From the NCBI GenBank assembly GCA_949987705.1, contig OX465281.1:198697112-198761111 (forward strand): 64,000 nucleotides of DNA, written 5' to 3'. This stretch comes from Thereva unica. Its lineage: Eukaryota; Arthropoda; Insecta; Diptera; Therevidae. Made by a program: the position numbers and the translations under genes. Below, piece by piece: positions 6,781 to 49,200 of this stretch (position 1 is the stretch's first letter; each line of letters begins with the position of its first letter). The notes beneath the pieces are model-generated. The model made no database searches. It had not been told where the DNA came from and saw only the letters and a list, made by a program, of their open reading frames with translations.

Positions 6781-7626
6781 TCATATTTGTAGGCCAGACC
6801 GCCTGAAAAAGTTCAGCAGTCTGCCTAGTGGTTTGTCGCTTAGACTTGAGTGTTCGAGCAGGGACTTCTCGAACAGAGAGACCCTGCTCCTTGCTATTGC
6901 AGGGCACTCACAGAGAACATGAAGGGCAGACTCATCCTCTTCTAGGCAAAGCCTACATGTAGGGTCCTCCGCCCTTCCTATCTTCCATAAGTGATAATTT
7001 AGGGCACAGTGTCCGGTAATTAAGCCAACAAGTGTCCTAACATCACTCCTACTACGCCGTAATAATTCCTTGGCCGTCTTAGGGGACGGCACTGGAAGGA
7101 ACCGCTTAGAGTTGGCCAGTCCAGGAGCGGATCTCCAGCGTTCAATATGTTTCATCAAAGTACGATCGGCCAGGGCCCTTTGCAGCAAGCTGGACGGTGC
7201 CCCAATAGCCGGCTCTGGACCAATGAATTCTAAATCAGAGCCCTGTTTAGCCAGGGCATCCGCACTTTCATTGCCTTCGAAGCCCCGGTGACCCGGGACC
7301 CAGACAAGTGTAATTTGATTGAGAGCGCCCAACTCATGAAGAGCACGTTGGCAGTCCCAAACTAATTTCGACTTGGTCCTACGGGACCTTATCGCTCTAA
7401 TTGCCGCTTGGCTATCAGAGAAGATAAAAATCCGTTTATTTTGGTAGGCCCTTCTTAAGTTCTCATGAGTGCATGCCAGAATAGCGTACACCTCTGCTTG
7501 AAAGACAGTTGCCAGAGTGCCTAGACTTATAGCCTTGCTGAATCTGGGACTTTCACTCCAGATTCCGGCGCCTACACCTGTCTCCGTTTTAGAGCCATCC
7601 GTGTACCATACTAGCCCGCCCGGCAA
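6781..7626 (-). pseudogene. LINE ORF2 RNase H domain and C-terminal zinc-knuckle
   Basis: This 281-residue frame is the C-terminal part of LINE ORF2. It has RNase H motifs: WYTDGSKT (Asp10), QAEVYAI (Glu45), FSDSQAA (Asp71) and a WVPGHRGFEGNESADALAK block carrying the last catalytic residues. Downstream is the TGHCALNYHLWKIG segment and a CRLCLEEDE...HVLCECP zinc-finger-like motif, common after RNase H in R1/I/Jockey-superfamily LINEs. RNase H would degrade the RNA template during reverse transcription. The domain itself is open. It is cut off from its RT by a stop codon near 7687, so the protein would not be made as a unit. Confidence 0.8.
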
Positions 7627-7686
7627 AGCTTTAGGAAAAGTCCAGGTAAGCCTTTCCTGTATATGTACAGAAGGTTGCTTAAATTT

Positions 7687-8874
7687 TTAGATTTTATAGG
7701 GCATGCCGTCCGATAGCATCTCCGCTTCTGGAATCTCTTCTATGATGTTGATTATTATAGAATGTCCTCGCCCAAGACCAGCGCCCAAGTAACCATTCGC
7801 TTTCAGCCGCAGCGCCGCGTTTATGGCGGACTTCTCTACCTCAAGGTGGAGGGGTACCAAATTGAGGAGAGTCTCCAGCGCTGCCGTTGGGGAAGTGCGG
7901 ATGGCCCCAGTGATGGAGAGGCAAGCCATTCTTTGAATTTTGCTTAAAATGGTTATGGAACCCTTAAGCTTCGTTCTGTGCCACCAAACTAAAGCTCCAT
8001 AAGTTACCATGGGTCTTATGATGGTGGTGTATATCCAGTACATGGTTTTCGGTTGCAAACCCCAGGTGGAATCACAAGCTCTGCGGCAAGCCCACAGGGA
8101 TCTGCGCGTTCTACACATCAGAGTGTCCATATGCTGTTTCCAGTTGAGCTTGGCATCTAGCGTCACTCCTAAATATTTGGCTTGTTGTGAAAAGCCTATA
8201 GTTCTGCCCGCGAATGTAGGTTCCCAAATTCCCGGTAGTGATCGTTTCCTGGTGAAAGGAACTAGAATCGTTTTGTCGGGATTCACTTTTAAACCTACGC
8301 TCTCGCACCAGCTAGAGACCAGATCAAGTGCCTGCTGCAGGCGCCTTGACATGGCGCCTTCAGATTCACCTGTAATTACTATGACGACATCGTCAGCGTA
8401 ACCTTGGGCGAAAATGTTTCGACCGTTGAGCAGCTCGAGGAGTTCATCTACAACAAGGCACCAGAGAAGTGGAGATAAAACTCCTCCCTGCGGGCAGCCT
8501 GTTGCTATAGTGCCCTCCAGAGACCCCTCAACATGAGAAACAATTAGTTTGCGAGTTCTCAGCATAGAGTCAATCCAGTTGCAGAAAGTGCTACTTAGAC
8601 TGTGTCTACTTAGAGCCCTAGCTATAGTGTCAAAGGATGTGTTGTCAAAGGCTCCCTCGATATCGAGGAAGGCCGTCAGCGCAACTCCTTTGTTTAGAGC
8701 TGCATGTTCAAGCCTGAGCACCAGATTGTGCAGTGCTGTCTCAGTAGACTTGCCCGCCTGGTACGCATGCTGATAGGAGCTTAGTGGTTGGCTTTGAAGA
8801 TAAGTTTCCCTTATCGCCCGGTCGACAATTTTCTCCATTGTCTTCAAGCCTATCGGCCTGAAAGATTTAGTCAA
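7687..8874 (-). pseudogene. LINE ORF2 reverse transcriptase domain
   Basis: The 395-residue frame carries the RT core: FRPIGL (residues 5-10), DIEGAFD (71-77, first catalytic Asp), CPQGGVLSP (127-135), GYADDVVI (158-165, catalytic YADD) and AKYLGVTLD. It ends with the thumb-like VTYGALVWW region. Its N-terminal RT segment (SFKPYKSPGADGI at 9132-8941) is in the same frame but behind a stop, and the RNase H follows in frame behind another stop. The enzyme would copy LINE RNA at a nicked target. Only two nonsense codons spoil the RT-RNase H stretch. Confidence 0.85.
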
Positions 8875-9646
8875 GGTGTAATCCGAACGCCCTGGCTTAG
8901 GTATAAATGTTATGTTGACGTTCCTCCAGGCGGATGGGAATTAGCCATGTGCGAAGGAAGCCTTAAATAATTTGCATAATAAGGGAGTGACTAGGTCGCA
9001 GCCCTCCTGTAGCAGAATGGGATAGATTCCGTCTGCTCCAGGGGACTTGTATGGTTTGAACGATCTAATCGCCTCCCTAATAGCTTCATGGTTGAACAAG
9101 GTATTTGCTTCTGTCCAGGCGGCTTTGGACACTTTACAAAGTTGGCCTGTTCGCTGCCCAGCAGAAGTTGTGTTCTCTTTTGAATAAATGGTTGTGCCTG
9201 GAGCAATATTATCAAAGTTTCTTCCCTAGACTGTGTGAAAGAGCCATCGGTTCTCCTGATGGATCCAAGATCTACCGATAAGCCCTTTGATAAAGCTTTA
9301 TAGATTTGTGCTGAGTCTCGAATGTCTTCGACACTCTTGCAGAAATTCCTCCAGCTATTTCTTTTTGCTCGTCTGATCGCCCTGTTATGGTTAGCGAGCT
9401 TTTATAACTCTCGCAGTTGCCGCTCTTCTTAGCTGCGTTGAACAGTTAAACAAGTAAGTGTACCATCCGCTAGCTGAAAACCCCACCTACGCGGATCTTT
9501 GGTCCCTATTATTAACCGGTTTAGCCGGCGGGATGCCTTATTAGAGCTACCCTATATCTTGCAATAAAATAAATTTATTTGTTCGCATCATCTTAATTAT
9601 TTATTTCAATTTAAATCATTTATCAAAAATATTTCGTATACTTTAG

Positions 9647-34200: not shown

Positions 34201-37200
34201 CAAAAAAGCGTAAATGCCGTATAATCATAGCCCTGAATCCTATTTTTTTTGTAAATGCAATGTATTAATCGGTAAAATTGATGCGATAATTATAAATATT
34301 TTTAAAATTTAAGGTTACGAATGAATTATTTATTATCTTCTTTTAGACTGGGTGCAATTAATTTTAATCAGTTTGAAAAAATTGATGGACATGAACACGT
34401 TCAAACAATTATTGATACACCAAGATTTGCGACTGATTTGCAGTATTTGTTGTCAGTTTCATACATACAAGTAAAAATTTAAAAAATAAACAACAACAAA
34501 AATTATGTATTATATATTCTCTTTAGGCTAATAAAAGGGCACCGGAATTCACGACTAAATACAGTTCAACTGAGCAATTTGTCACAGCTGATTTTTCTAC
34601 ATTGGAGCTTACATTACATCAAGAATGTTTATCTAATTTGCTAGAGGTGAAAGAGAGTGTTGTTGAAAAAAAGGACTTAATCAATTCTACTTTTATGTTA
34701 TTTAGATTTCAGTAAATTTACAAAAGAGGCTCGAGATGGTGACCAATCGTGCCGAAAAAGATCGGTATGCCAGTGCTGCAGATGAAGGAATAATAGCTAA
34801 ACTAACAACAATTCAAGAAGAGGATGACGGTGTACCAACTACCAAAGCAATCGAAAAACGTACTTCCGTTGGTATTGTTAATATTGTATTTTTATTAATT
34901 GTAATTTCTTTTCAGGTCGTCGAAAAAAACGAGTGGTTGATAGTATAAAATTAAAAGTTGAAGCGAATTTAGAACAAGTCGCTGTTAAAATAACATGTAG
35001 AAAACGACCAATTGCAAATTTAACTATAAGTCAATTGGACGCCGGTGTTGTGATGAAATCTTCTTACACGGAAATGTCATTAAAACTTAAAGATATAATA
35101 GTTTCTGATTTAAATCCGTTAACAATACATTCAACGGTAAGTAATAATTGTGGTATTACAGTATTTATCCAAATTTTATATCATCTCGTAAGAATTGATT
35201 ATTGTGTTCGTACCAAGTCGCAGCTATAGCTAAGCTAAACATGATATACTAAACATAATTAACCTTTTTGTATCATTATCACTGAAGCAAACATTCCACT
35301 GAAGCAAATTTATTTATTTGGCTTTATGGTAGACCGACGGGCTGCTAACAGCGTTATCGCATTCCCACCGATATCCGTGCGTTTGGCGATTATAACCATC
35401 GGTGGAACGATCAAAACCCATATCGTATCCGTTTATGCGCCAACCGAGACCAGCACGGACGCGAACAAGAACGAATTTTACGATCAGCTTTAACAGACGC
35501 TGGATATGATACCTCGAACCGAATTAATAATACTCGCGGAGACTTCAATGCGCAGGAGAAGATGAAACCGGTTGGGAAGGAACCATGGGCAAATTCGGAC
35601 ACGGAATAATTAACGACAACGGCTTTCGCCTGCTTTCATTCGCATCGTCAAACAATTTGATCATTTGCAATAGCATTTTCCGCCATCCACTAAAACACCA
35701 ACTCACCTGGCGAAATCCATTTGGCAAAGGCAGGATTCCGATCGACGTTAAAAGACGTACGTGCAATGCGTGGGCCCGATTGTGGATCGGACCACTATCT
35801 TGTTCGAGCGAAATTACAGATGCAATTACAAAGAGCGAAGAAAACGGCACCTCCACCAGCCAAGAAGAATTGGACGTGCCTACGGAACCCGGCCATCGGG
35901 CGAGAGTTTCAAATGGCATTATCCAACAAATTCGCGGCGCTCGCAATACCGGAAGATATCGATGTAGAAGAAAGGCAATTGTCGGAGTCTATTGTAAAGT
36001 GTGCAATGGAGTAGTGTAAAAACGGACGGAGCCATGGATCTCGGACAGATGTCTGGACCTCATCAGTAGGTAGGGGGTCGGTTGAGCCTGGGAACCAGGT
36101 CAAGGTCACTGCCCATTGAATCTGGGTCAAGGTCAACCACCTGTTGGTGGCCATGGATCTAGGTCACGGGGTCTACGACCGTGGGACTGGTTTGCTTGGG
36201 CGGGACCTGGGTCAGGGTCGGTCGGTGGCTTGGGACTCGGTGGGGCCGGGCTCGGCTTGGGCCGGGGCTCGGCTTGGGGCTCGGCTTGGGCCGGGCTCGG
36301 CTAGGGACTCGGTGGGGCCGGGCTGGGCTGGGGGCTCGGCTGGGGACCCGGTGGGGGCTGGTAGGTACTTGTTTATGCTGTGGCGGAAGCTATCGTCCGA
36401 CACGGCGGCCTCTAGTTTGGTTTGCAGGTGCGGCGAGGGACTCGGCAGGGGCTTGGTTTGTCTGTGGGGGACTCGACAGGTGTGGAGTGGAAGAAAAAGC
36501 GAGAGTGGAAAGTGCGCATGACTGCAAAGCTGACGCGTGGTCATTTACCTCTACGCACTAATGGGCCGTTGTGGTGGAACTTTCACTCTGCAAGCATGCA
36601 AGCATTGGTTCCTATAGGAGCTCGAAGCGAAACCTGAAAAACGACTAGGGAGTGATCATAATAAAAACAATATGGTACTTGTTAAACATTTTTATTTTAC
36701 TCTCTAAAACCGGATTTATTATTACACTCAGTTGTGAAATTCTGTTTTTAAACCTAAATGTATCTACTGCATACTGCTCCCATGATCCTTTCCTACTTTG
36801 TCTGTATGCGAAACTCCATACTACCGTATATTTAACTTGTGGGTCTTCATTGAAACTTATTTTCTTTCTCATATCTGCTCATGGAAATAATAATGAATTG
36901 CTAGAACGAATAAAATACCGGCTAAAAATTTCAAAGTGTTAAATGTACAAAGTATCATTTTTGATTTAGGTTGTTCTGTAAGTGGTGCTAGCTGATCTTT
37001 GAATCGTCCGCATTCGTCTTTCCTATTAACATAGATACAGTGTGGTGAACGATGTCTATGATCAAAATCTACATCCGATGCGCAACTCATAGCATTTATC
37101 TGCAGAGAACAAAAGTAACATTGAACACGGTCTTTGATGTTTGTGTAAAAAAATCCACTTTTCGCTAGCTGGTCTGCTGTATCTAAGTCTATTGCAAGAT

Positions 37201-40200
37201 TATCGAATGTTTTCAAACGATCGTATTCTTGTTTCAAGTTTAACATTTTGAATGAGTGTAACAGGTTTTATATCACGTCTTTTATATCAATCCAAGTATT
37301 GTGTTTTGATGGAAAACCAAGCCACTTCACTAGAACCTGATTACCGCGTCTTTTTATAACCTTTTCTACTAAATAGACATCAGGGTTTTTCACAGGAGCT
37401 ATTTCTGGTTCATAAAATCTGCCTTGAATTATATTTCCCTGGTAATCTTCCAGAATATATGTTGTTGGGTAAACAGATTTAACTTCTTTTATTTTAAAGA
37501 TCTCTGTGGACCAATTAGGTGTATAACCTTTTTCGAATACATGTTTATGTCTACTTATACGAACAAAATCACCTGCTTTGTATTTAGACTTTGATTTTAT
37601 TTTGGGGTAATTATACACAGATAATAAACGTTTTTCGTTACGCGGTCGAACATCTACTGGTCTCATCTTAATCGTACGATGTTTTGTTGTATTGTAGTCA
37701 TCTGTCAGCTTGGTCAACATGCTAATCCAGTGATAATTGCCATTCATGCTGAATTCTTTCCACATTATATTTTTCAATGTTCTGTTAAATCTTTCTACAA
37801 TTGAGGCTTTCAGAGTACTGTAGCTGGAATAATGGTTTATTTCGTAATCTTTCATCAGTTGACGAAACGGTTTATTAAAAAACTCTTTTCCATCATCGGT
37901 TTGTAAATTTCTTGGAATCCGTCCTGTATTAAAAATCGACTGCAATGCTTTTACAACTTCTGATGCCTTTTTAGATTTTAAAGGCAGTGTCCATGCATAC
38001 TTTGAAAAGGTATCAATTACAGAGAGAAGAAAACGAAACCCCTGATTTTCTGATGAGTAAGAACCCATCTCGACCAGGTCTGCCTGCCACAAATCATCTA
38101 TACCTTTGGTAGTGACATGTCGACGTTTAAAATTTTTTCGCACTGGTTTATGCAGTTCGTTGATTATCTGTCTTCTGCTCATTGTGCAGAATGTATAAAT
38201 ACCTGCAGTTGAATGACCAGTTTATATACAAAGCAAAAATGATCAAGTTTAATCACCCATTTACAATGATGGTTGCGGGGCCTTCGGGATGCGGCAAAAC
38301 AACATTTATAAAAAATCTTCTTAATACTAATAAGGTATTTATACAACCGCAAATTAGAAAAATTATATGGTGTAATGCAGAACACGGTGCACTACCTACG
38401 GATATCAAACTGCAAAACATCGAATATTTAAATGCTATACCAGAGGAGTTTGTAAATCATGAAAACGAGCCAACATTGATTGTTATAGATGACATGATGT
38501 TAAATGGATTTAGTAAACAAGTTTGTGAACTCTTTACTAAGGGGTCTCATCATCGTAATTTCTCAGTAATTCTTGTGACACAAAACGTATTCCATCAAGG
38601 AAAATTCAGTCGTGATATATCGCTCAATTGTAAATATCTTGTTGTATTTAAAAACCCCCGGGATAAAAGTCAATTTACACATCTAGCCCGACAAATTTAC
38701 CCAGAAAATAGTTATGAACTCGTGAGAATATATAAAGAGATAGCTCAAATACCTTACGGGTATTTGCTTATTGATTTAACTCAAGACATTAACGACATCT
38801 TAAGATTTCGAACTGACATATTTAATAAACACTTTGTAACCTGTTTTTGTCCGCAAAATTCTTTAAATGGTAAGAATGGTGTCACGAATGAAACGATTAA
38901 GGGACAACAAGCATATGCTATATGTGCTTAAAAAGGCTAAACCAAATCTAAGAAAGTCCATCATACAAAATGCTGACCCTGAGGTAATAAAAACTCTTTG
39001 TGAAATTACGCTCAACACCTTAAAAGGTAATCATATGCCGCATGGAAATATCTATAACTCACTGTGTAAGTATAAAAAGGACATGCGTAAATTGATTTGT
39101 GCAAAGAGATCTGTTGCTAAACAGCGTAAAATACTAGTGCAACGAGGAGGTTTTTTACCAATTTTATTAGGAAGTGTACTATCAGGAGTTATTGGCTCAT
39201 TAATTGAAAAATATGCATAGAAATAATGGACTTAACAAGATGCTACTTCTGTCGCCAGAAGTTTACAACAGGCTTAAAGATGAAATTGAAATGAACGCAA
39301 ATCAGTCCATTTTTGATAGAGCAATGAATAAAATACTGCAGAATAAAGACATGAATGATTCAGAAAAATGGTATAGCTATCGAAATCAACTAATTTCATT
39401 TTTAAATCACAATCGGAAATCCAAACGAACGTTGGATAAAGAAACAAATTTATACTTGCCACGTGAACATAATGTCAGACAAAAAAGTTTAAGAGATAGT
39501 ACCACACAAACGAAAATTATTTTTAAAGATGATGTGTTAACACAGACTTCACCACCACCAGCAAAGGATTTCCTAGCTGAAGAAGAAGAAGTCTTTGAAG
39601 AAGCACATAACATAACCCCACCAAGAAGATCTTTATCACCAGCCGCTAAAAGACGATTATCAGCTAGCGGAATAGCAAAAACTCTAAGACCACCACCAAA
39701 ATTACTAAGAACAACAGCTCCACCTAATGCACGTGAAAAGGATTATAAAATAATCACTGCTGAGGATGGTGTAACTCAGTATACTGTACCTGCGGCTATG
39801 AGTCCCGATGAAGCTAGCGAACATATAGATGAATTAGAACAAAGTGAAAAACAAAAAGCAGCCCAGAAACAGTCTATATTAATACCCTCTCAGCTAGAAT
39901 CTGGTCAATATATGCTTTCATTTCCTTTACGCAAGCTCGGTACTAGACAGAGTGAGCGTTTGAAGACTAAAAAGGATAGACCTGCAAGTACTTCTGACAT
40001 TCCTTGGGAAAGACTGTAAACAATGCCGGTGGAAATAAAAGAAAATGATTTTTATGTATGCCTTTTGAGTAATAACTCTATGCAATTTTACCCGGAAAAT
40101 ACGCTATCGGCTTTTACAAATGCGCTTGCGAAACCATGCAAGTTTCATGGAAACTGGTGTGTTGGAATAACTGAAATTGCATTACCAAATTTTGAAATAA

Positions 40201-43200
40201 CAAAACGTGCAATCTCCAACAACGGGGGAAATGTGCGTAAACGAGTGAGGCGTGAATATGACCAGTTAAAGGAAACTAGAAAGCAGCATCAAAAGGATTT
40301 TAAAATACTTAGCATCAAAATAAATGAAAATGTAAAACTTGAATGGACACCAGAAAATCTTGAACAAGTTAGTTACAGACCTGGACAAATAAACCTTTCA
40401 GCATTTTTATTAACATTTTATAATGCAGTTACACCTTCATGGTATACCATGTACTTGAATGATGTTAAATCGAAAATGTGGAAGCGCTTAGAAGAAGACC
40501 ACTTTAATGAAGTTATCCCTGAAATAAACTATAAGCAAGAGCCAAATGAATACATATTGCACATATATCAAGGAAAAAAGACTTCAGAAAACGTTGTTTT
40601 AAAATATAAGAACTATGAATCAATTGAAGATTTTGTTGATGATGTATTTGGTCAAGTTCCTAGGAAGAATAGAAAACATCCTGTTTTGAAGAATACAATA
40701 GACAATTATACACATCCAACGGCTAGCATAAAAACAGCTGAAAATAAAGAGAAAAAAGGTAGTGAAAAGAAGCATGATGTATTCGAACTCCGTTTAGAGG
40801 AGTTGGGTGTTACGATAAAAATAAAAAAACCACTACCCTCACACTTGAATGTTAAAGATCTCATGACATTGCTTTTAGCTAATTTACACTTTGACGATAA
40901 ACAACTTAGCGAAGAAGAAAAACATAAGCGAATTATTGAAATTAAAAATACAATTTTTGAAATATTGAATAGACTAAAGAAAGATTCACTCAAAGCAAAG
41001 GCACCCGAGCAACGGAAAATAACTAAAAACAGTGATATTTTGCAGGTCCCATATGAAAAACAAAGCTCGGGCGAATTTTTATCTACACCAGTACCTATTA
41101 ATACAAACATAGATAATCTGTCAAACTTCATCACAGATGTATTTCTCCAAACACCTGAAAACAAACGCAATCCTGATGCCTTGTTGACAGAAATAAAAGA
41201 GTCATTTGACACTGCGGGCTTACGCCAAGAGCACATGTCAATAATGGAAAAAATTAATTCTCTTGATACAACAATTAAAGAATTGATGTTGCGATTACCA
41301 AGAAGTACACCGGAAACTGTAAAAGATTGCCCTGAGAAAAATATAATACATATATACACTGATATTATACAACCTAGAGCTATAGGCGACAAGCTAGTAA
41401 GATATCTACGAATAATACCGATTCAAGGGTGTGGTACTATATTAAGATTTGAGCATGTAGAATACTGTCCTATTGAAAAAACTTTTATTGAAAGTATTTC
41501 TATAAAAATAACTGATCATCAAGGGGAGTTAGTAGACTTTAAAACAAATTATATTCCTACATATGTAATGCTTCATTTTAAGAGACAATAAAAACTATAA
41601 ATATTTGCACAACAGGCTGTTCTTGCATAGTATAAATAGAATTACGAGATGGATTCCTATTATATACGTTATTATTTAATACAAAGCGGCGGTGGTCTGT
41701 CAGATATTGGAGAACTATATCGTGGTCCACTTATTTATCAACGTGGAAGAGGAATCGGTAGTTTCTTCAGTGCATTATTTCGACACTTAAAACCTCTAGC
41801 TACATCAGGATTAAAAACATTAGCACAACAGGCTGTAAAAACAGGACAAGCTATAATACAAGATAAAAACATCAACAACAAATCAGTTAAAGATATTTTA
41901 AAGGAACAAGGTCGAGTTGCTGTTCAAGATTTAGCTCAGAAAGGTATAAATAAACTGTTTGACGGTATGAGCGGTGCAGGTATAAAAAGACCCAATCCGT
42001 TTACAACTTTACATTTAAAACCAGCTGTTAAACGCAAGAGACGTGGAAAAACACCTAAACGGTCGAGAAATTGTAAAGCTAAAAATCAAAGAAAAGGAAT
42101 AAAAGCAGGAGTTTTGAAAACAAAACGAAAGATACGTAAACGTATACTGGACATATTTGATAAATAATGTCGTACAAAGAATGCATGAAATCAGAGCTGG
42201 ATCTTTTTTCCACACCACCAGTTCAAAGCAATATTTTGAAAACAGAAGAAGTAGCATATAAGCCAATAGCCTCACTCGACAACTCCTCCGTTCTAGAGTT
42301 TGTAACTTTGGGTCATGGAGACACATACCGTGATTTATCTAGCATCTATCTTCGTTTAAAATTGCAATTAATTAAAATAAAAGATGGAAAAGAAGAACTT
42401 TATACGAATGATGGCGATGCTCCAGGTCTAATAAACAACATTTTACACTCCATATTTCGTCAGTGCACCGTATATTTGAATGGAAAACCAATTGCTCAAA
42501 CCGACCATAATTACAATTATCGCGCTTATATTGAAAATTTGTTAAATTATGGTAGAGATGCCGCATCTACCCATTTGGAGTCGGTCGGCTGGTATCTTGA
42601 CAAAGATGACACGGAAATTGCAGATATCGATAAACCCGTCGCTGAATTACATCAAGGCTATCTAGATCGTCAAAAACTCTTCAATAAAAGTAATGTAGTT
42701 GAATTGATGGGGAAAATCCATACTGATTTGCTTAATCAGGATAAGTTGCTATTAAACGGTGTCGATTTACGGGTAGTTTTATCGCTTGAAAAACCAGAAT
42801 TTTATATTCTATCCAAGGACGGAACCGACTCACCACAATTAAAAATCTTAGATGCAACAATGTACATGAACCACGTAACCGTCAACCCGAATATTTTATT
42901 AGCACATGAGACAGTTCTACAGCGTTCAAATGCCTTATACCCATACAAGCGAGTTGAAGTTAAAAGCTACACTATTCCCGCAAGCACATTCACACTTTCA
43001 CTGGATAATATTGTCATTGGACAGTTACCGAACTTAATAATATTTGGTATGGTGGACAATGATGCTTACACTGGCAGAAGAACAAAGAACCCTTTCAACT
43101 TTAAACATAACAACATTACCAGATTCAATTTATCCGTGAATGGCGTACAGATACCAAACCAACCTCTCGAATTTGACTACTCAAAGGAAAATCCGATTAG

Positions 43201-46200
43201 TACACGCGGATACAATACGTTATTCAGAGGAACAGGTATTCATTACTTCGATAAAGGTCATCAAATATCCAAGACATTATTTGACAAGGGATGTTTTCTT
43301 CTCGCTTTTGATTTAACAACAGACAATTCATATAACGCGACTTGCGGCAATTTACTAAATCAAGGGACGGTACGAGTTGAAGGAAAATTTAGAGACGCTT
43401 TAAAAAATAGTGTGACATGTATTGTATATGCTGAGTACGATGGAAGCATTGAAATTGACAAGGATCGAAATGTTTACACCAACTTTTAAATCTATATAAG
43501 ACGGATACTTTCAACAAACTGTTAGTTGACAAATTGCTTTACTATAGTAACAATGAGCTGTTTAATTAACGCGGAATACTTTTGCGGAGGTGAATTTACC
43601 TTCTTTAAAAAAGTCTCTTTAGCTGGATTCACTGTACAAAATAAAACATTTACAAAGGAAATAATTTTTAAATATCCAACATCTAGTTTGGAATGCAGTG
43701 AACAACAATCAAGTAAATTTGGTAATCTTGAACTAAAACGTATGGATGAAGACCTTATAAAAACTCTAGCGAAATTTAAGACAATCTTTGTTCGTGGTAC
43801 ATCAACTAAGGAGTTTATAAATAACTATGTTACATCTCTTACCGAGGTCATTGACTTAGAAGCAGCATTTACCTGTGAACAAGAATGAACACGATCGAAC
43901 TTGCAACTGCATTGACAAATAATCGCCTAACAAACAAGTTTTTTAGAGGAGTCTTCCCCTGCAACCATCTACCACAAAAAATAAAAAAACCCGCATGCGT
44001 CATAGCTAATACGGATCCATCACATAAAGACGGAACTCACTGGGTTGCATTTTATTTCCCGAAACAAGGTCCTGCAGAGTACTTTGACTCATTTGGAAGA
44101 TATCCCACCAATAAGTTTTTTCAAAGATTTCTTTTAAATAATTCAAAGACTTTTTTAAATAATAAAAAACGTTTGCAGGGACAATTTTCATCGACATGTG
44201 GACATTATTGTTGTGTATTTCTATATTCTCGGTGTAGAGGAAAGAGCCTAAAGAATTTTTTAACACAATTCTCTTCGAGCGATTTCAGTTTAAATGATAA
44301 TAAAATAGTTAATTTATACTTGAAGAATTTTACACAAAGTGGTGGAGACTTTTGTAACCAATCATGTAAAGCCGAGATCAGCACTATAAAAACACTGAAC
44401 AAAAGCTGTTAATATTTAATGTTAAAGTTTAATTTGAGTAACATGGAGCCATCACGTAAAAGACAGAGGACCACTGGTGCTAAAGGAAAAAAGAAGCTGT
44501 CCAAATGCGAAGCAGAAGTTGTCGGTGAAAATCTCTTATTAAATTACACGTACCATTTGGACGACTGCCATAACTGGAAGATAATACTCGGCTTTGACCC
44601 AACATCGTTCGAGGCGAAAATAGTATTTCAGCGTTATGGGCTCATCCCAATATCAGCATCCTATCCCGAATGGACATCTATTTACAACTATCTTGGTGCT
44701 TTAAAAACGAAAATGGAAAATTCATCTTCAGCAAATCAGACGAAGGAGTACAAAATCCCCATTGGCAGTGGCAGCATCACTCTAAGGCAAGCGGAACTTT
44801 GTAAATTATTTGAAATGCTGAAATTTTTAAACATCGTTATGTATCACAATAACAATGCTTCAGAGAGCGTGAAAGAATATTATAAGAAGTACATTGAAAA
44901 ATGTAAAGAAAAAAATGTATTAACATTAGCATGTGAAGATTTTTTTATTCCAAGTCGAACATCTTATGTACACTTAAATTATTCTCGACTTTTTTATGAA
45001 ATACCTTTGTATTGTATTGCAAATCTTGTTTTTGATACGATAAATTTTGACTGCAAATAAATAAATAAATAAAATACAACTAAAAAATTCTTTTATTTAA
45101 AACATTTATTCACTAGCATGTACAAATAAATATTAAAACAATTTTGTACGGCACATCTTAGACTAGGTGATTTTCCATGTATAGTGCAGAAAGCTCCAAA
45201 ATTTTCCAAGTTGGCTAGTTTTGGTATTTCCAATTGGTTTATTTTCGCTTCCGGAAGGTATTTCTGAATAAATTTCTCCTTTTCTAGTCCTTTCACGTAA
45301 ATTGTTGCATTTGAATAATTCGACAGTATCTTGGGTAATTCGTTGTAATTAATAATGCCGCCGTTCCATCTTAATCCATTTATTTTTCTAAAGTTGAAAT
45401 CATTTTGCGAACGAGCTTTTGACGGTAGTTCATTATACGGGTATGGAGGCATAAAATAGTATAAACTTGGTATAAGCGACCCGTGATGCAAGACGGACAG
45501 CTCCTTAGCAAATAGCTGTCCGTTAATTCCACTGACAAATTGTACATCTAAAACAACTCTATCGGAACTCATAACTTTAACTACTCAAAGGAAAATATGT
45601 ATCAAACTATTTAAATTTATTTATTTTAAAGCTTTATATATGCTACTCGCTGCCTTGAGGCAAATGGACTGATGTTACTTCCAAACAAAATGTGTCAGTG
45701 CTTGCTCCTTCTGAATTGCTCTGGAAGATTTTCGCAATCATTTCCCAGATGTCACTAGTTTTTACATCAGATGCCAACTTATAATTTATCCATCCAGGGC
45801 CTCTTTCCCTAAAGCTGGCACCGCAAAAAGTAATACCAACATAGTCATTTGGTTGGATCGCCGTCATCACATGTTGAATAATGTCTTCAATGCTGCTCTT
45901 AAACCATGTTAAAGGTTCTACATTCCTTGGCGTGTCATTGATTTTAAATTCAATTTTGCGACCCCTCACATTGAAACGTTTGTTGTGGGTTATTATATCT
46001 CTAATGATGCTAAATTTAGCCATTTTTCAACAATGTTTTCTAAGCTATGCCAAGCACGCACGTTGCATATTGCTTTTGTTTCTCTGTTTATATAGGAGCT
46101 CGAAGGCACAATAATTAATTTAATGATTAATAAAAATCTGATATTACAAAATCCATTTAATTTTCCCGCATTTAAATGAAAAACGTATCATGTGCAATTC

Positions 46201-49200
46201 TTCTCTCTTTCACACTTTGTTTTGCATTTAATCTTACCCCGCGCTGAATCTCAGCTAGCAAAAAGTGTATTTTTTACCCGTCCCGATATTTATGAATGTA
46301 TCAAGTTCATTCATTCACCCGGTTTCATAATTTCAGATAGTAACAACAACACCATGCAATACTCGCCGAGAATCATCGGCATCGAAAGTATCCACAGTCA
46401 CCTGTCATGTACCCTGCAAACATTACAAGTTGAGATCGAGGTTTTTAAATATTGGCGATGGAAATTTAACTAAAAAATCATATAAAACATTAATTTTATT
46501 AATTTAACATAGTTTTAATAATTTAAAATATTAAAGACTAGTTGATAAAATGTTTTGCAAGGTAGTTATGTGATAAATCCACGGGTCTTGCATTTGTTTA
46601 CCTTCATCATCCACAGTATCTGTCTGTTCAGGTTATAACAAAAACAACAACCATGCAATAGTTGCACTGCAGCGCAACCGCTGTTTTTGCCGCTCAAGCT
46701 GCTGCTGCAGTTTTTGTTTTTGTTTCGCTTGGTCTTTCTTTTTCATATTCGCGGGCTCTTGCAGTTGTGATCACGATCATGTCCACGTTATTTTCATCGG
46801 CTCACTGGGCCGCAAGATCTAAAAATAGAATTTCACAACTGCATATGTACAGAAATAATCCAACTCCATCCAACTGTCGTCTTGGTCAAGTTGTCTAAGG
46901 CGTTGGTTTTTCTGTTCGCGATTTCCGTGGCGCTGGCGCTGGTTCGATTCCCAAGCAATGTGGGATTTTTTTGTGGAATAACTTTATTTATTTATTATTA
47001 TTTATTAAGTACACATCTTTTAGAGTAAGAAAAAAAGCATTGACGGGTATAGACTTGTTGTACAGAGTGTAAGATCCAAGGCACAATAATGAATAATTAA
47101 TTTAATGATTAATAAAAATCTGATATTACAAAATCCATTTAATTTTCCCGCATTTAAATGAAAAACGTATCATGTGCAATTCTTCTCTCTTTCACACTTT
47201 GTTTTGCATTTAATCTTACCCCGCGCTGAATCTCAGCTAGCAAAAAGTGTATTTTTTACCCGTCCCGATATTTATGAATGTATCAAGTTCATTCATTCAC
47301 CCGGTTTCATAATTTCAGATAGTAACAACAACACCATGCAATACTCGCCGAGAATCATCGGCATCGAAAGTATCCACAGTGTCTCAAGCTGCTGCTGCAG
47401 TTTTTGTTTTTGTTTCGCTTGGTCTTTCTTTTTCATATTCGCGGGCTCTTGCAGTTGTGATCACGATCATGTCCACGTTATTTTCATCGGCTCACTGGGC
47501 CGCAAGATCTAAAAATAGAATTTCACAACTGCATATGTACAGAAATAATCCAACTCCATCCAACTGTCGTCTTGGTCAAGTTGGCTAAGGCGTTGGTTTT
47601 TCTGTTCGCGATTTGCGTGGCACTAGTTCGATTCCCAAGCGATGGGTGATTGAATGACTTTATTTATTAATTTAATACAGAGTAAGAGAGAGTAACAAAA
47701 AAATATACAAAAATTGACAGGGAGGGTATATACTTATTGTACGTACAGAGTGTAAGACCGGTGCTCTGCAGAGGCCAGGGCACTTACAAAATCGATCAAT
47801 AACAGGTTCCGTCGCGGCTCTGACGATAGCTTCCGCCACAGCATAAACAAGTACCTACCAGCCCCCACCGGGTCCCCAGCCGAGCCCCCAGCCCAGCCCG
47901 GCCCCACCGAGTCCCTAGCCGAGCCCGGCCCAAGCCGAGCCCCAAGCCGAGCCCCGGCCCAAGCCGAGCCCGGCCCCACCGAGTCCCAAGCCACCGACCG
48001 ACCCTGACCCAGGTCCCGCCCAAGCAAACCAGTCCCACGGTCGTAGACCCCGTGACCTAGATCCATGGCCACCAACAGGTGATTGATTGATGGCCTTGAC
48101 CCAGATTCAATGGGCGGTGACCTTGACCTGGTTCCCAGGCTCAACCGACCCCCTACCTACTCTCATCGATCAGCGGAAGCGAATAAAACACGTCAACTTT
48201 GAGCAATACCGACGATTGAACAAAGAAGTTCGACAGAAAATGAATTCAGAACGCCAAGCGTACTGAAATAACGTTGTGGCCGACATGGAAGAAGCGGCGT
48301 CGAGGCATGAGTACCGGACGCTGTACCAGACAATCCGCTGGTTAGGCGGCAAGACAACATCAACAAACGACAACATAAAAAAATCGGGTGGAATTTTTGT
48401 GACTTCTCCCCATGAACGTCTGCAGCGGTGGAGAGAATTCTTCCACCAGCTGTACAACCACGATTCGCCGCAAGGTTTAGCACCCGAACCGCCGATTATC
48501 GAACAGCCGACGAATCAGTTTCTCGATACCGAACCGACAATTATCGAGGTGAAGATGGCAATAAAATCGCTGAAAAATGGAAAAGCGCCGGGAATATATC
48601 AAGTAACCGCTGAGATGATCAAAGCCGGAGGTGATGTCTTATCACAACGACTTCAAGTATGGCATTCAGAAAGAAACGGCGTGAAAGAAAGCGATCGTTG
48701 TCCCAATTTTAAAGAAAGGCGGCAGTCGGGAATGCAAGAACTATCGCGGTATTAGCCTTCTTTCGATCGTCGGCAAAGTATTTACGGTAATCATATAATC
48801 GAGGCTACAGAAACATCGAGAGCAAACGAGCCGGAAAGAACAAGCTGGATTTAGATCACATCGAGGATGTATTCGCCAACATTCGTACTGTGGGCCTCGG
48901 TAGTCTAGGGGTAAGGTGCCTGACTACTATCTCCAGAGGTCCCGGGTTCGATTCCCGGCGGTGCCACGGTCCTAGCCTTTCCCAATTTCCCGCCTACATA
49001 ACTTTCCTTCTTTCTTCTTCCCTCTTTGCATTCCTGATTCCTCCTGTCATAGCCTTCACTAGTTCTCTTCCCCGCTCCACCAAGCGCATGTCATCGGTTG
49101 GTTGATGAGATTCAACTCGTTTCAGGAGGCATAACACTCCAGCGAGTTGTTCTCGATGCCCCGATGTCAGAGTCGCGAAATGGTTGGGAGTAGGTGAAAT

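Follow-up and report, generated by a model that had tools for sequence, protein, structure and literature searches.

Background

Polintons (Mavericks, adintovirus-like) are defined as elements that make their own DNA. Capsid-bearing satellite viruses of the virophage kind need the replication enzymes of another element, and non-autonomous derivatives of DNA transposons, which have undergone internal deletion, keep their ends and are amplified in trans. A stretch of 64,000 nucleotides from the genome of Thereva unica (Diptera; Therevidae; GCA_949987705.1, contig OX465281.1, positions 198,697,112 to 198,761,111 of the forward strand), referred to as the window, was examined in the present study. 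It contains a Polinton of 12,097 bp (36065..48161) with its own capsid gene, in which the protein-primed DNA polymerase B (PolB) is reduced to a separate gene for its N-terminal domain.

Insect Polintons, including the PolB-bearing ones of the same genome, have in common with this element the terminal repeats, a 6-bp duplication, an integrase with chromodomain, the ATPase, the major capsid protein (MCP), the protease and the right-hand gene order. In contrast to the PolB-bearing Polintons, the element is without the vOTU-exonuclease-palm part of the polymerase, has its terminal protein (TP) as a separate gene and is shorter (four PolB-less copies for which both ends were read measure 11.3-13.2 kb, versus 16.8-21.7 kb in six PolB-bearing repeat pairs). 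For the Drosophila-associated adintoviruses 1-3, an insect Polinton-type gene set, a length of 13.3-14.6 kb and a DNA PolB are reported (PMC8363768); gene set and length are similar here, but the PolB is theirs. The TP gene is reported to be separate in adenovirids and in a Stylophora pistillata polinton while a protein-primed PolB (pPolB) is still encoded, and mavirus encodes its own pPolB (PMC11071308). A TP apart from the polymerase is therefore common to these adenovirids, the coral polinton and the present element, whereas the pPolB retained by them and by mavirus has been lost here. Genomes with adenovirus-class virion proteins but without recognisable PolB and integrase have also been mentioned (PMC11071296). 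In the open-licence literature searched, we found no Polinton described as PolB-less and capsid-bearing with a separate TP; the separate TP already published is that of elements which retain PolB (PMC11071308).

The polymerase is reduced to its N-terminal domain

A profile scan of 78 stop-to-stop frames of at least 50 aa returned no PolB family among the best 25 of 51 matching families (to E 0.012). Twelve PolB loci of the same genome (L009-L020), chosen to represent different frame lengths, were also compared with the whole window. Eleven of the 12 frames matched it (E 1 or better), and only at 45649-46023, while the twelfth (L011), supplied without its N-terminus, had no match in the window; as a control, the same PolB frames matched the PolB locus L014 over 1,123-1,286 residues. 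On the scan and the genome PolB frames together, a polymerase in some other reading frame of the element was rejected, as was one elsewhere in the window, where these frames have no match of E 1 or better beyond the TP gene. By these comparisons, no exonuclease or palm domain of a protein-primed PolB was found in the element.

The matching region is a stand-alone gene of 126 aa on the reverse strand (45643..46023), corresponding to the N-terminal domain of Polinton PolB. All 12 PolB loci match it at 54-73% identity over about 124 residues. The matching part opens the PolB frame or lies close to its beginning, except in L011, where a small frame of its own directly precedes PolB. A TATA-like box, a stop and an AATAAA signal were read by eye at the gene. 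PolB is therefore not absent without trace; since the PolB frames match only via their N-terminal ~124 residues, the vOTU, exonuclease and palm have been deleted and the primer kept. The initial annotation, which had described a complete Polinton with no PolB, was right as to exonuclease and palm but did not recognise the retained primer domain. In two of the PolB loci (L011 and L012) and in two proteins (P0131 and P0132) a stop or additional sequence breaks the frame behind the conserved SNSEG motif in the TP domain, an interruption that looks like an intron.

The deletion junction was placed at 45642..45650 (reverse strand). Homology to PolB ends at 45649-45652, and from about 45641/45642 the DNA again resembles the region that precedes a 159-aa gene. 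DNA homology to most of the PolB loci compared (L009, L013, L015, L018, L019 and L020) spans from the capsid genes to 45641/45642, a point between the TP stop and the 159-aa gene, and then stops, while that to L010 and L016 reaches only about 45597. Relative to L009, the missing segment is about 3.6 kb. Some stand-alone TPs form a second class (frame 138), whose longer tail resembles the linker start of the 1270-frame PolB class; compared with it, the class present in the window is without about 49 further bases, such that the deletions are nested. Two nested, multi-copy deletion classes imply that the lineage passed through at least two forms after PolB loss.

The 126-aa protein is very probably a terminal protein, i.e. 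the protein primer, as judged from its homology and predicted structure. Its relationship to the N-terminal part of Polinton PolB is the one expected of the TP D1 domain, and its model shows an LF/PAD-like fold in which a loop (residues 102-111) between the second helix and the last strand bears a Ser, one of the two residues (Ser or Tyr) looked for in a primer. Fold comparison gave middling Z scores (best 8.4) and weak Foldseek E-values: there was no match at E 0.001 or better against the PDB, where rows 1-4 were non-polymerase entries (including Cascade-TniQ, a lipoprotein and an RNA entry) and Y-family polymerases followed from row 5. In the BFVD fold search, too, nothing reached E 0.001; the top entry was an adintovirus protein (Drosophila-associated adintovirus 2, E 3e-3). 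A further protein, P0130 (130 aa, on a 1.4-kb contig), is 60% identical to the stand-alone TP over the whole length; it is perhaps a stand-alone TP in another organism, or a frame merely cut by the contig end. Relatives sought in IMG/VR and prokaryote contigs gave none that could be confirmed.

A multi-copy family with its own capsid gene

Inverted repeats begin at both end positions of the element, on the left over 336 bp (36065..36400, forward, first bases 5'-AGTAGG) and on the right over 343 bp (47819..48161, reverse); their alignment shows 333 identical positions, 3 mismatches and a single gap of 7 bp. The target-site duplication CTCATC (6 bp) adjoins them on either side (36059..36064 and 48162..48167), in agreement with the initial annotation, which had placed both ends, both repeats and the duplication inside the window. 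With terminal repeats of hundreds of bp, a 6-bp duplication, a retroviral-type integrase, an ATPase, a protease and a double jelly-roll MCP, the element has the hallmarks of a Polinton. The MCP (440 aa, 42167..43489, forward) is a double jelly-roll capsid protein according to its model (mean pLDDT 82), which matches capsid proteins of that type, the best PDB match being Sputnik (E 1.4e-15). It had 444 relatives in a protein search, with Hermetia illucens the best named (77% identity). The element therefore has, as a satellite virus does, a capsid gene of its own.

The genome assembly (910 Mb, 930 contigs) was searched for further copies, the resulting counts being lower bounds from likeness-ranked samples. 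For the TP, the best 150 of 395 candidates were scored. These included 126 matches of 90-100% identity, all in frames of 114-171, of which 113 are full-length and open and six contain a stop; open frames were mostly of two lengths (51 of length 127 and 48 of length 138). The other 24 scored matches are at most 73% identical, with 22 of them in frames of at least 493, and the closest PolB-fused TP among the matches listed (73% identity) belongs to the 1270-frame class. No match fell between 73% and 90% identity among those scored, and thus a PolB-bearing parent of the stand-alone TP was not found among them. A search with PF03175 gave 197 matches, the best 75 of 698 candidates being scored; none of these 75 places lies within 12 kb of any of the 126 stand-alone TP matches.

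For the MCP, the best 96 of 472 candidates were scored, ranked by likeness to the MCP of the window, so that the sample was chosen by resemblance to the family's own capsid. Of these, 48 had a stand-alone TP downstream (within 12 kb), 29 had a listed PolB or fused TP, none had both, and 19 had neither among those listed. The distance from MCP to TP in the 48 was 2.08-2.22 kb in 44 cases, and 2.9, 3.6, 5.8 and 11.2 kb in the rest. Junctions were read in the window, in four copies picked by their terminal repeats and in six from the stand-alone TP list. At 11 of 11, the TP runs to the 159-aa gene without PolB, and the MCP was at the expected place in eight of the ten further copies. The PolB-less structure is thus shared by sister copies. 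Both checks put forward in the initial annotation, for a PolB domain inside the element and for the structure of sister copies, therefore left its reading standing, as no exonuclease or palm was found inside.

Four copies have different 6-bp duplications, namely CTCATC in the window, CAGAGT at C1:69.09 Mb, CGCCTC at C1:161.57 Mb and GATTCC on C775, and in a fifth the opposite end was not detected within the stretch examined. The copies therefore look like separate integrations of DNA that was already PolB-less. Duplication of one chromosomal stretch was rejected as the source of the copy number, because five true outer flanks are mutually unmatched and the four duplications differ; among the seven 1,500-base stretches compared, the sole match was between L023 and L033, both internal to elements. 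The PolB-less form is a multi-copy Polinton family, and both its structure and its family status are well supported.

Candidate helpers and capsid sharing

Many PolB frames without stops are present in the same genome. In six elements (C2:33.36, C1:130.38, C5:53.50, C3:72.16, C1:188.56 and C2:54.97 Mb), a PF03175 place is enclosed by a pair of terminal repeats that share 82-97% identity with those of the window. The initial annotation had reasoned that a polymerase must be borrowed or another mode of replication used, and these stop-free frames and similar repeats make borrowing plausible.

Synonymous divergence was estimated against nine of the 12 PolB-bearing loci (L011, L012 and L017 excluded), with 7-9 loci matched per gene. 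It was 0.05-0.27 at the capsid end, 0.06-0.71 in the protease, 0.52-0.99 in the 213-aa gene, 0.76-1.30 in the 159-aa gene and 1.89 to beyond estimate in the TP. This rise from capsid to TP indicates that the element and its PolB-bearing relatives have had their capsid genes in common until more recently than their replication ends, most simply through recombination.

Replication in trans and its rivals

We consider it probable that the element belongs to a satellite-like Polinton family, with its own ends, integrase, capsid, protease and stand-alone TP, for which PolB-bearing Polintons of similar ends provide replication in trans. An internal deletion starting at the end of the TP domain removed the vOTU, exonuclease and palm of PolB, and the retained domain may act as a primer. 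The PolB of a complete Polinton would then copy the element from the common ends, with the TP of either the element itself or the helper as primer, and the copies would be packaged and/or integrated by the element's own capsid and integrase. The trans-replication mechanism is moderately supported, and dependence on a helper is inferred. The satellite-like form envisaged in the initial annotation is supported by the capsid gene and the PolB-less sister copies, with the dependence on a helper remaining presumptive. Capsid-bearing satellite viruses would share with this family an own capsid combined with borrowed replication, the presumed helper here being a Polinton resident in the same genome. 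Amplification in trans would also be common to non-autonomous transposon derivatives, compared with which the element keeps its integrase, protease, capsid genes and the primer domain of the polymerase. A more specialised satellite, in which the primer end of PolB alone was kept, the element's own TP marks its own ends, resident Polinton PolB is recruited and capsid genes are swapped, has about an even chance of being correct. No purifying selection on the TP after the loss was seen in 31 copies, a sample biased to low protein identity.

That same lack of constraint would be expected if the family were a passive non-autonomous deletion derivative, mobilised by helper proteins alone; the open TP and capsid genes would then reflect only the youth of the copies. 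The TP of the first-read copies is 99-100% identical, so that frames would be open anyway, and some copies are without parts of the integrase and ATPase or without an MCP at the expected place. However, the cut spares the whole TP domain, which ends in a stop of its own, both nested deletion classes keep the TP, 113 of the 126 TP matches are full-length and open, and half of the scored capsid places (48 of 96) have a stand-alone TP nearby; passive mobilisation is hence unlikely. Another route of replication, by host polymerases or by copying only during chromosome repair or replication, is compatible with the finding of no polymerase in the element, and PolB-free multiplication would be compatible with the sequence. 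Its ends, TP and right-hand gene order are nevertheless those of PolB-bearing Polintons, and stop-free PolB frames are plentiful in the genome, which makes such a route quite improbable. A private deletion in the window copy, or an assembly error, has practically no chance, being refuted by the PolB-less junctions at 11 different places, the at least 126 stand-alone TP matches and the differing target duplications.

That a PolB-less family has multiplied at all suggests that the replication of Polintons can be provided in trans. Because the loss falls at the boundary of a domain only recently proposed as the protein primer, it provides a natural test of the TP assignment, in that the primer gene belongs to one element and the polymerase gene to another. 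The family may also serve as a genomic model for how capsid-bearing satellites arise from, and coexist with, helpers in one genome.

Left-end genes

Two genes adjoining the integrase were overlooked in the initial annotation, as was the 126-aa frame. The outer one encodes a 75-aa protein (36645..36872, reverse) with a PP1-binding core of the GADD34/PPP1R15 type (PF10488, E 1.1e-05), the score of 25.7 bits being slightly below the curated cut-off of 26.1; its sequence matches include DP71L (3.6e-06) and PPP1R15A (1.8e-05). The inner one encodes a 125-aa BIR-domain protein (36869..37246, reverse; PF00653, E 7e-13) with a hydrophobic C-terminus read by eye. The profile and sequence matches indicate a PP1-binding core in common with GADD34/PPP1R15 and viral DP71L-type proteins, and a BIR domain in common with IAP-type proteins, here in Polintons. 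Both genes are present in PolB-less and PolB-bearing copies. The BIR protein was matched at 17 of 30 terminal-repeat loci, five of these being ends of PolB-bearing pairs, and a protein search with it gave no candidate. Both look like host-response genes, and no report of BIR/IAP or GADD34 genes in Polintons was found in the open-licence literature searched.

Remaining gene content

The integrase (304 aa, 37268..38182, reverse) is open, with rve (E 2.8e-13) and chromodomain matches in Pfam. It is followed on the forward strand by the packaging ATPase (249 aa, 38182..38931; Pox_A32, E 2.7e-08; frame open from 38164) and, downstream of the MCP, by an adenovirus-type maturation protease (175 aa, 43885..44412; PF00770, E 2.3e-07). 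Of the genes named in the initial annotation, the ATPase, MCP, protease and integrase stand, all open, while the 172-aa basic glycine-rich protein (41649..42167, forward) is pX-like by eye only. No function was assigned to forward-strand proteins of 117 aa (38867..39220), 271 aa (39204..40019), 522 aa (40023..41591), 120 aa (43526..43888) and 213 aa (44419..45060), or to the 159-aa protein on the reverse strand (45093..45572), which adjoins PolB in PolB-bearing relatives. Pfam was the reference for the 522-, 271- and 120-aa proteins; PDB sequences were used in addition for the 522-aa one, which had no match there. Pfam matches of E about 0.002-0.2 to unrelated families were treated as chance. 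In the right arm (46110..47624) no gene was recognised; it contains two direct duplications (289 bp, 100%; 242 bp, 99%), which also occur in other PolB-less copies. Outside the element, two open frames, one of 301 and one of 417 aa, lie side by side in the window (6781-8940, reverse).

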